NCBI GenBank assembly: GCA_017960005.1
Contig: JAGCZM010000064.1
Location: forward strand, 1 to 11,915
DNA: 11,915 nucleotides
Direction: 5' to 3'
DNA from: Eggerthellaceae bacterium
GTDB lineage: Bacteria > Actinomycetota > Coriobacteriia > Coriobacteriales > Eggerthellaceae
The notes under the pieces are model-generated. The model saw only the letters and a program-made list of their open reading frames with translations. It had not been told where the DNA came from and made no database searches. Every line of letters begins with the position of its first letter. Within the stretch, counting starts at the first letter, position 1. Shown in pieces: positions 703 through 2,590 of this stretch. Made by a program: the position numbers and the translations under genes.

Positions 703-708
703 AGGAGG
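703..708 (+). promoter_or_regulatory. strong ribosome binding site for the fusion gene
   Basis: A perfect AGGAGG lies ten bases before the ATG at 719 and fixes the start of the carboxyltransferase-AccB gene. Confidence 0.8.
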
Positions 709-718
709 TGCTGATCAG

Positions 719-2590
719 ATGTCGCGGTTAGCCATTATGGATACCACCATTCGTGACGGCCAACAAAGCCTTTGGGCCACCCGCATGCAAGTCGGCGATA
801 TGCTGCCGATTCTGCCGCTGATGGACAAGGTCGGATACTGGGCCATAGAGGCATGGGGTGGTGCGACGTTCGACAGCTGCCTTCGTTTTTTGGATGAAAA
901 CCCCTGGGAGCGTCTGCGCTCCATCAAAACGCAAACCCCCAATACGCCGCTTGCCATGCTCACCCGCGGGCAAAACCTGGTCGGCTACAAGCATTATTCC
1001 CGCGAAATCTGCAACCGCTTCATCAAGGCTGCCCACAGAAACGGCATCGATGTGTTCAGGGTGTTCGATGCGTTAAACGACATCCGCAACGTCGTGGACA
1101 ACGCCGAGGCCATCAAGGAATGCGGCGCGCATTTCGAGGGAGCGATTTCTTATACGATTTCTCCGGTGCACACTTTGGACAGTTTCATCGAATATGCCCA
1201 GCAGCTCAAAGAGCTCGGCGCCGATACCATTTGCATCAAGGACATGGCCGGCATGCTTACACCTTATCGTACCGAGCGTATGGTCAAGGTCCTCAATGCC
1301 GAAATCGGTTTGCCCGTTCATATCCATACCCATTATGTCGGCGGTATGGCTCCCGCCAACATCATCAAAGCGGCCGAAGCCGGTGCCGCCATCGCCGATA
1401 CCGCGTCGGCTCCGTTGGCGTTCGGTAACTCGCATCCCTCCGTGGAGATGATCGTGGCTGCCTTGCAGGAGAGTCGCTACGACACCGGTTTGGATTTGAA
1501 TTTGCTGTTCGAGATAGCAAATTACTGGGAAGAGGTGCGCGAGCGCAATCACTACAAGCGCGGCGTTTCTTCCCTGATGCATATGCAGGTTCACACGCAC
1601 CAGGTTCCCGGCGGCATGATGTCGAATCTGGTCAGCCAGCTCGAGATACAAAAGGCAGCCGATCGTCTGCCCGAGGTCATCGCGGAGATTCCGCGCGTTC
1701 GTGCCGAAGTCGGTTATCCGCCGCTTGTGACGCCGATGAGCCAAATCGTCGGAACGCAGGCGGTGTTCAACGTCATCACGGGAAAACGCTGGAGCGTCAT
1801 CTCCAAGGAGATGAGGGATTTCATATGCGGATACTACGGCAAAGCTCCCGGAAAGATGGATCCCGATGTGGTTGCCAAGGTCGTGCAATCATCCGAGATT
1901 CTGCCTCCGGATGTGGCGCCGGGTTCGCTGGTTACCACCACCTATGACGAAGTTGCCGCGGAAATCGGAGATCTCGCAAAGAGCGAGGAAGATGTTTTGA
2001 TGTACGCGCTGTTCCCGACGGAAGCACGCACGTATCTGACCAAACATCGCACCTCCGGCAACGTCGATTTTATGCTCGCTACCGAAAGCAGTTCCACCAA
2101 AGAGGAGGACTACGTGGACATCAATCAGATTCGTGAATTGGTCAAAGTCGCCGAAGAAAGCGGCGTGGGTGAGATTGTCGTCGAAGAAGAAGGCATGAGA
2201 ATCTCGGTGAGAATGCCGGGCGCCGTTTCTGCCGGACAAGCGGCCCCCGCGGCTGCCTCATCTCCCGCCGCCGTTGCCTCTGCCACCCCCAAACAGGCTG
2301 CCCCGGCACCGGTTGATGAGGGTATGGAGGGCTGCTATGCCGTCAAGGCACCGATGGTCGGCACGTTTTATGTTGCGCCGGCACCCGGCGAGCCTCCGTT
2401 TGTTCAGGAAGGCGATGAGGTCACCGCAAACCAGACGCTGTGCATCGTTGAGGCCATGAAACTCATGAACGAGGTCACCGCCGAGGAGATGGGTGTCGTT
2501 CGCAAGGTTTGTCTCAAGGACGGCGATCCGGTCGAATACGGCACCGTCATGTTCTACATCGAGCCCCACAGCGTTTCCGCACTGCAGTAA
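719..2590 (+). CDS. OadA/PycB-type carboxyltransferase fused to a complete AccB-type biotin carrier
   Basis: A 623-residue biotin enzyme subunit. Residues 1 to about 450 are a carboxyltransferase of the pyruvate carboxylase B / oxaloacetate decarboxylase alpha / transcarboxylase 5S family, a TIM barrel followed by the PYC_OADA scaffold. Matched by spacing to Rhizobium etli pyruvate carboxylase, the active site looks intact: Arg12, Asp13, Gln16, Arg83, the carbamylated lysine Lys174 in IKDMAG, metal histidines His203 and His205, and Thr338. Residues 466-623 resemble a full acetyl-CoA carboxylase carrier (AccB). They include its N-terminal segment (DINQIRELVKVAEESG), an Ala/Pro linker at about 500-533, the PMVGTFY strand, a thumb-like APAPGEPPF insertion, and the biotin site EAMKLMN with Lys581. 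Pyruvate carboxylase or oxaloacetate decarboxylase carriers normally lack the thumb. The gene occupies the accB slot directly before accC. Likely pyruvate/oxaloacetate carboxylation with AccC, possibly also acetyl-CoA carboxylase; the substrate is inferred. No sodium-pump beta or gamma subunit is nearby. Confidence 0.9.
   Translation: MSRLAIMDTTIRDGQQSLWATRMQVGDMLPILPLMDKVGYWAIEAWGGATFDSCLRFLDENPWERLRSIKTQTPNTPLAMLTRGQNLVGYKHYSREICNRFIKAAHRNGIDVFRVFDALNDIRNVVDNAEAIKECGAHFEGAISYTISPVHTLDSFIEYAQQLKELGADTICIKDMAGMLTPYRTERMVKVLNAEIGLPVHIHTHYVGGMAPANIIKAAEAGAAIADTASAPLAFGNSHPSVEMIVAALQESRYDTGLDLNLLFEIANYWEEVRERNHYKRGVSSLMHMQVHTHQVPGGMMSNLVSQLEIQKAADRLPEVIAEIPRVRAEVGYPPLVTPMSQIVGTQAVFNVITGKRWSVISKEMRDFICGYYGKAPGKMDPDVVAKVVQSSEILPPDVAPGSLVTTTYDEVAAEIGDLAKSEEDVLMYALFPTEARTYLTKHRTSGNVDFMLATESSSTKEEDYVDINQIRELVKVAEESGVGEIVVEEEGMRISVRMPGAVSAGQAAPAAASSPAAVASATPKQAAPAPVDEGMEGCYAVKAPMVGTFYVAPAPGEPPFVQEGDEVTANQTLCIVEAMKLMNEVTAEEMGVVRKVCLKDGDPVEYGTVMFYIEPHSVSALQ
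2103..2116 (+). promoter_or_regulatory. internal in-frame start signal at the AccB boundary (possible free BCCP, 2114-2590)
   Basis: Inside the fusion gene a perfect AGGAGG (2103-2108) is followed after five bases by GTG (2114-2116). This GTG is in frame (codon 466) and stands exactly where AccB similarity begins, with VDINQI matching the usual start of AccB proteins. Initiation here would give a free 158-residue biotin carrier, close to the 156 residues of E. coli AccB. The bases also encode Glu-Glu-Asp, so the site could be a by-product of the amino acids or a relic of a once separate accB. Position and spacing are seen; use in the cell is inference. Confidence 0.45.

Follow-up and report, generated by a model that had tools for sequence, protein, structure and literature searches.

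The analysed window, a stretch of 11,915 nucleotides from an Eggerthellaceae bacterium (contig JAGCZM010000064.1 of assembly GCA_017960005.1), contains a fused open reading frame that is followed by accC and then by a gene of the Asp23 family. Profile searches showed that the fused frame joins a carboxyltransferase of the HMGL-like and PYC_OADA type to an AccB-type C-terminal biotinyl domain. Within this gene the first-pass annotation had described an AGGAGG, a five-base spacer and an in-frame GTG at codon 466, from which a second product of 158 residues might be made. All these elements were confirmed in the sequence, and the masses given at that time, about 67 and 16 kDa, are close to those computed here (Table 1).

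Table 1. Features of the fused gene, its internal start site and the neighbouring accC gene. Positions are those of the window.
Feature	Position	Strand	Remarks
Ribosome-binding site AGGAGG of the long form (for ATG 719)	703..708	+	anti-SD energy -11.3
Fused CDS, 623 aa, predicted 68.1 kDa	719..2590	+	PF00682, PF02436, PF00364; NF006761 743.7 bits (cut-off 402)
Carboxyltransferase part alone, codons 1-465	719..2113	+	465-aa piece against NF006761: 666.2 bits
Internal Shine-Dalgarno AGGAGG	2103..2108	+	anti-SD energy -10.1; three bases later than the AAGGAGG of most relatives
Spacer ACTAC, includes TAC codon 465	2109..2113	+	
Internal GTG start codon, codon 466, in frame	2114..2116	+	
Predicted free AccB (biotin carboxyl carrier protein), 158 aa, 16.5 kDa	2114..2590	+	TIGR00531 144.0 bits
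Codons 469-475	2123..2143	+	low third-position GC like that after the true start
Codon of the biotinyl Lys581 in EAMKLM	2459..2461	+	position computed
accC, biotin carboxylase, 450 aa	2623..3975	+	TIGR00514 652.1 bits (cut-off 626.5)

The fusion has the domain arrangement of subunit B of two-subunit pyruvate carboxylases, a carboxyltransferase with a C-terminal biotinyl domain, and the separate biotin carboxylase gene that such enzymes have as a partner is present as accC, the sole PF02785 match in the assembly of the window. The fused product would thus be of the pyruvate carboxylase subunit B type, with pyruvate as the presumed substrate, going by the family name only. Two other identities were rejected, since the scores lie below the equivalog cut-offs: oxaloacetate decarboxylase alpha (TIGR01108, 631.9 versus 756.5 bits) and methylmalonyl-CoA carboxyltransferase 5S (NF008984, 484.3 versus 827 bits). 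A protein search with 3006 matches, the best 120 of which were inspected, yielded close relatives together with the names given in databases; it does not enter the counts below. Nine of these 120 relatives are named, eight as acetyl-CoA carboxylase biotin carboxyl carrier protein and one as oxaloacetate decarboxylase alpha. The carrier-protein name on eight of the nine conceals the carboxyltransferase part.

The C-terminal part of the fusion corresponds to a complete AccB. Residues 466-615 match positions 1-155 of the 156 positions of TIGR00531, the NCBIfam equivalog model for the biotin carboxyl carrier protein (BCCP), and codon 466 aligns exactly to position 1, as had been noted before. The score is 138.2 bits for the fusion and rises to the value given in Table 1 for the short form (cut-off 115.2); the short form therefore matches over the whole length, above the cut-off and with the initiator position. 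We presume that Lys581 is biotinylated, as it lies in the EAMKLM motif of such domains.

By computed anti-Shine-Dalgarno (anti-SD) energy the internal site (-10.1) nearly equals the one that precedes ATG 719 (-11.3), and it is much stronger than that of accC (-3.3). The region between positions 2595 and 2625 leaves accC nearly without a Shine-Dalgarno sequence, unlike the strong internal site upstream, and translation of accC may depend on coupling to the fused gene. Judged from the window alone, the evidence for the internal site is weak: a search for AGGAGG-N5-GTG with at most one mismatch gave two matches in the window, one of them exact, and 1.9 are expected in shuffled sequences. The site stands out from chance because it is conserved across relatives.

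Relatives were gathered by searching sets of 60 and 138 genomes with the fused protein, and named loci and gene stretches were added. A cut copy of the window (L001) and loci L060-L119 were excluded beforehand. The remaining 147 loci gave 137 distinct fused genes, including the window's own (L002), after eight identical genes and two loci that did not pass a length filter (L057 and L059) had been dropped. Groups were formed by identity and do not represent taxonomy: the 122 genes with at least 63.5% identity are termed Coriobacteriia-like and the 107 genes with at least 74% Eggerthellaceae-like; one gene below the 63.5% band (L208) comes from a member of the same order as the window. Synonymous steps were counted by parsimony on a tree of the 122 genes (length 17.85), and a Fisher test, uncorrected for kinship, was made separately.

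All 137 genes have an NTG start codon at codon 466, which is GTG in 121, ATG in 14 and TTG in two of them. The residue varies between valine, methionine and leucine while the codon remains a start codon. Genes with ATG include those of Actinomycetota and Clostridia MAGs, both genes with TTG are from Desulfosporosinus, and among the 122 Coriobacteriia-like genes 121 have GTG and one has ATG. The two loci dropped by the length filter, L057 and L059, carry ATG and GTG, respectively, at this position. Re-examination of L057-L111 revealed nine open reading frames that match both profiles. Four have the start codon (L057, L058, L059 and L064; L058 is among the 137), and it is missing at the aligned position in five more distant fused frames (L060, L069, L070, L073 and L074); L060 has GTA at this place and an ATG two codons later, and L070 shows no alignment at the border. 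Two archaeal genes that resemble subunit B and have no AccB profile match (L063, L072) are likewise without the start codon.

The synonymous codon choice around the site is strongly constrained. In the 107 Eggerthellaceae-like genes synonymous variation is lowest, among all 11-codon windows of the gene, in the one around codon 463 (z -5.4), and the next separate constrained region is found around codon 128 (z -3.2). GTG 466, TAC 465 and GAG 462 are invariant in this set, and codon 464 is GAT in 105 of the 107 genes although the mean third-position GC is 0.80. Codon 466 is the only all-GTG column among 32 conserved valine columns (mean 52%), and codon 462 the only all-GAG column among 34 glutamate columns. 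On the tree of the 122 Coriobacteriia-like genes, codons 462, 465 and 466 show no synonymous step (codon 466 in 121 tips with valine, codon 465 in 115 tips with tyrosine), while column means per 100 tips are 18 steps for glutamate, 16 for tyrosine and 28 for valine. The tyrosine in front of GTG is encoded by TAC in 115 of 115 genes, and in front of an ATG start TAT is used in two of the three genes with tyrosine. A TAT in front of GTG would give rise to an ATG out of frame, which may be why TAC is fixed.

The Shine-Dalgarno sequence is kept even where its position changes. AAG-GAG-GAY, which places AAGGAGG eight bases before the start, is present in 91 of the 122 Coriobacteriia-like genes. Thirteen genes, including that of the window, have AAA in place of AAG at codon 461; all of them have GAG at codon 463, and AGGAGG has moved three bases downstream, to five bases before the start. 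When AAG at 461 is combined with glutamate at 463, the latter is encoded by GAA in 10 of 11 genes. The class of the Shine-Dalgarno sequence changes in 14 parsimony steps on the tree, and it is difficult to account for such shifts if ribosomes do not bind there. Of the 122 Coriobacteriia-like genes, 120 have an exact AGGAGG within 20 bases upstream of codon 466, and all 122 have a computed anti-SD energy at or below -6; among the 15 genes with less than 63.5% identity the numbers are 10 and 13. The first-pass annotation had proposed to look at relatives that keep Glu-Glu-Asp for codons that destroy the site. Among 25 Coriobacteriia-like genes of this kind, 24 retain the exact AGGAGG and none loses the start codon; the sole exception (L041) has GGGAGG with a computed energy of -10.0, equal to the rest. 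An in-frame Shine-Dalgarno sequence and start codon are therefore conserved beyond what the amino acids need, as expected for internal initiation.

Codon 466 also stands out when all positions of the gene are compared. Over the 137 genes it ranks first of 587 columns both for the mean anti-SD energy (-9.9 kcal/mol) and for low structure (-5.5, mean -13.2). This ranking used an assumed anti-SD core that may differ from that of the organism's own 16S rRNA, and a few of its columns (352, 353) have meaningless mean energies. At codon 466, 99% of the genes combine a start codon with an anti-SD energy at or below -6; at every other column at most 37% do. In the set of 107 genes codon 466 is second for anti-SD energy, level with its overlapping neighbours, and in the 15 genes below 63.5% identity it is second for anti-SD energy and eighth for low structure. 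The lowest third-position GC in seven-codon windows is found around codon 5 (0.56) and codon 472 (0.57), compared with a gene mean of 0.80; the next lowest window (0.60) lies in the Ala/Pro linker.

These comparisons strongly support two starts, and the suggestion that one gene encodes two proteins has gained from them: start codon, Shine-Dalgarno sequence, low structure and codon choice are all kept. We consider it likely that one message is translated twice, into the 68-kDa carboxyltransferase-carrier fusion and a free AccB of 16.5 kDa. Initiation at ATG 719 would give the subunit B of pyruvate carboxylase type, and ribosomes starting at GTG 2114 would give the free AccB. Both forms would be biotinylated at the lysine of EAMKLM and charged by the same single AccC. 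The division of labour between them that we infer is that the fusion acts as part of a two-subunit pyruvate carboxylase and that the free carrier completes acetyl-CoA carboxylase in relatives with AccD-AccA. In lineages in which AccA was not detected, probably including that of the window, the free carrier would have AccC and the fused subunit as its partners, perhaps helping in assembly or serving as a carrier that can be exchanged.

The genomes were then considered with regard to AccA and further carriers. In a tally of 99 Eggerthellaceae genomes that carry the fusion at full length, compiled from hand-copied genome tables and with other carriers counted at E <= 1e-10, 38 have AccA and the fused gene as the only detected carrier gene; 24 of the 38 are at least 95% complete and three consist of a single contig (G028, G063, G160). 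AccA plus further carriers is found in 34 genomes, neither AccA nor another carrier in 22 and another carrier without AccA in two, where absence of AccA from draft genomes may reflect incompleteness; in three the AccA match is only weak or truncated. Eight genomes of the 60-genome set have AccA and only the fusion as carrier, each with exactly one biotin carboxylase match. FabD was found in seven of them and not in G016. With the threshold relaxed to E <= 1e-3, G023 shows a second, weak biotinyl match and the other seven still show only one. A strong AccA match was obtained in 13 of the 15 genomes behind the more distant named loci; seven of these 13 have no carrier other than the fused gene at E < 1e-10 (G162-G167 and G171; the AccA match of G162 is truncated). 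As AccA is present there and no other carrier was detected, acetyl-CoA carboxylase in such genomes must draw its carrier from the fused gene, in free or fused form. The full-length fusion itself might reach AccD-AccA. In the 34 genomes with further carriers there is no need for a free form through lack of a carrier. Several draft assemblies break in the Ala/Pro-rich linker at about codons 511-531 (L189 and L192-L196, from G021, G088, G085, G150, G152 and G114), so that the carrier domain can seem to be a separate gene or to be missing.

The 38 genomes with AccA and no other detected carrier agree with the earlier proposal of a free carrier for acetyl-CoA carboxylase; the assembly of the window and the other genomes without AccA that keep the site do not. 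In the assembly of the window (896 kb, 78% complete) a single AccC and a single carrier gene were found, and no match to AccA, AccD or FabD. The Shine-Dalgarno sequence and GTG are kept in every one of the 22 genomes that have neither AccA nor a further carrier, for example in G008, a single-contig genome in which FabD is missing as well. No match to PF01039 or PF03255 was found in seven Eggerthellaceae genomes (G000, G002, G008, G011, G013, G025 and G032). AccA, AccD and FabD were all undetected in these seven, which suggests that fatty-acid synthesis has been lost repeatedly among them. Strictly within clades of several genomes without detected AccA, about 9.6 synonymous changes are expected at codons 462, 465 and 466 and none was observed. 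Since the site persists where AccA was not detected, a function of the free carrier solely in acetyl-CoA carboxylase was rejected, and the free carrier seems to be useful beyond this enzyme.

Several other explanations of the site were weighed. A linker under constraint could by chance have Glu-Glu-Asp and Val codons that resemble a start site, as the number of matches in the window alone would allow; with columns that are frozen or compensate each other while other conserved Val and Glu columns vary, this is extremely improbable. The site might instead be a fossil of a once separate accB that lost the upstream stop codon while its old ribosome-binding site lingers. It lies exactly where a separate accB would begin, yet a fossil is expected to decay, and the absence of synonymous steps at three codons over a tree length of 17.85 as well as the compensating shifts of the Shine-Dalgarno sequence make this very improbable. 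Synonymous constraint in the relatives thus disfavours both the fossil and the chance reading that the first-pass annotation had mentioned. Shine-Dalgarno-like motifs have been proposed to slow ribosomes, and an AGGAGG at the domain border might cause a pause in which the carboxyltransferase folds before the carrier is made. A pause does not need a start codon, yet NTG is found in 137 of 137 genes with valine, methionine or leucine; low structure and the dip in third-position GC after the codon are likewise not needed, and we regard a pause site as improbable.

A further possibility accepts the internal start and holds that the free carrier never serves acetyl-CoA carboxylase, being instead a structural or exchangeable component of the enzyme of pyruvate carboxylase type, or else a store of biotin. 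The unchanged codons in lineages without AccA and the seven genomes without PF01039 and PF03255 matches are in line with this. It is nevertheless unlikely in view of the 38 of 99 genomes in which AccA is accompanied by no other detected carrier gene, and of FabD in seven of the eight genomes of that kind in which it was looked for.

With translation from two starts as the preferred reading, a more general picture appears moderately probable. In Coriobacteriia, other Actinomycetota and Clostridia, an internal ribosome-binding site would split one carrier into a fused form for pyruvate carboxylase (anaplerosis) and a free form for acetyl-CoA carboxylase (fatty-acid synthesis). One AccC would charge both, the strength of the internal start would set the balance, and the free carrier would have a second, undescribed role where acetyl-CoA carboxylase has been lost. 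If this is true, the route to malonyl-CoA is explained in genomes that have AccA and no separate carrier gene, the locus is a metabolic gene within a gene with two carboxylases sharing one carrier, and current annotation misses a product.

The two products fall into known families, and there are precedents for in-frame internal starts. The two-subunit type of pyruvate carboxylase is described in the part of PMC3199775 available to us, a phylogenetic study of biotin-dependent carboxylases that covers fusions and fissions of the carrier; in that part no mention of an internal start at the carrier border was found, and its main text contains no word beginning with "translation". Among the matches listed in literature searches on biotin carriers, carboxylases and internal starts, which mostly do not cover subscription papers, none points to an internal start for a biotin carrier.

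Like subunit B of two-subunit pyruvate carboxylase (NF006761; PDB 5ks8, beta chain), the long form is a fusion of carboxyltransferase and carrier with an adjoining biotin carboxylase gene, and its best PDB match is 5ks8_C (residues 1-449). In contrast to the 5ks8 chain, the carrier here is a complete AccB that includes the N-terminus proper to AccB; that chain matches only residues 96-151 of the short form (its last 56). The short form resembles the AccB/BCCP of acetyl-CoA carboxylase (TIGR00531; PDB 4hr7, chain B) over the whole length from codon 466, with 4hr7_B as the best PDB match (residues 1-149), but it is encoded inside a larger gene rather than by a separate accB. In-frame internal starts within a gene are described, in the accessible text of the respective papers, for the nuclease inhibitor RpnS (PMC10327210) and the CRISPR subunit Cas11b (PMC11899642). 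As in these two cases, a start inside the gene would yield part of the protein on its own; unlike them, as far as that text goes, the inner product here would be a metabolic carrier common to two enzymes.
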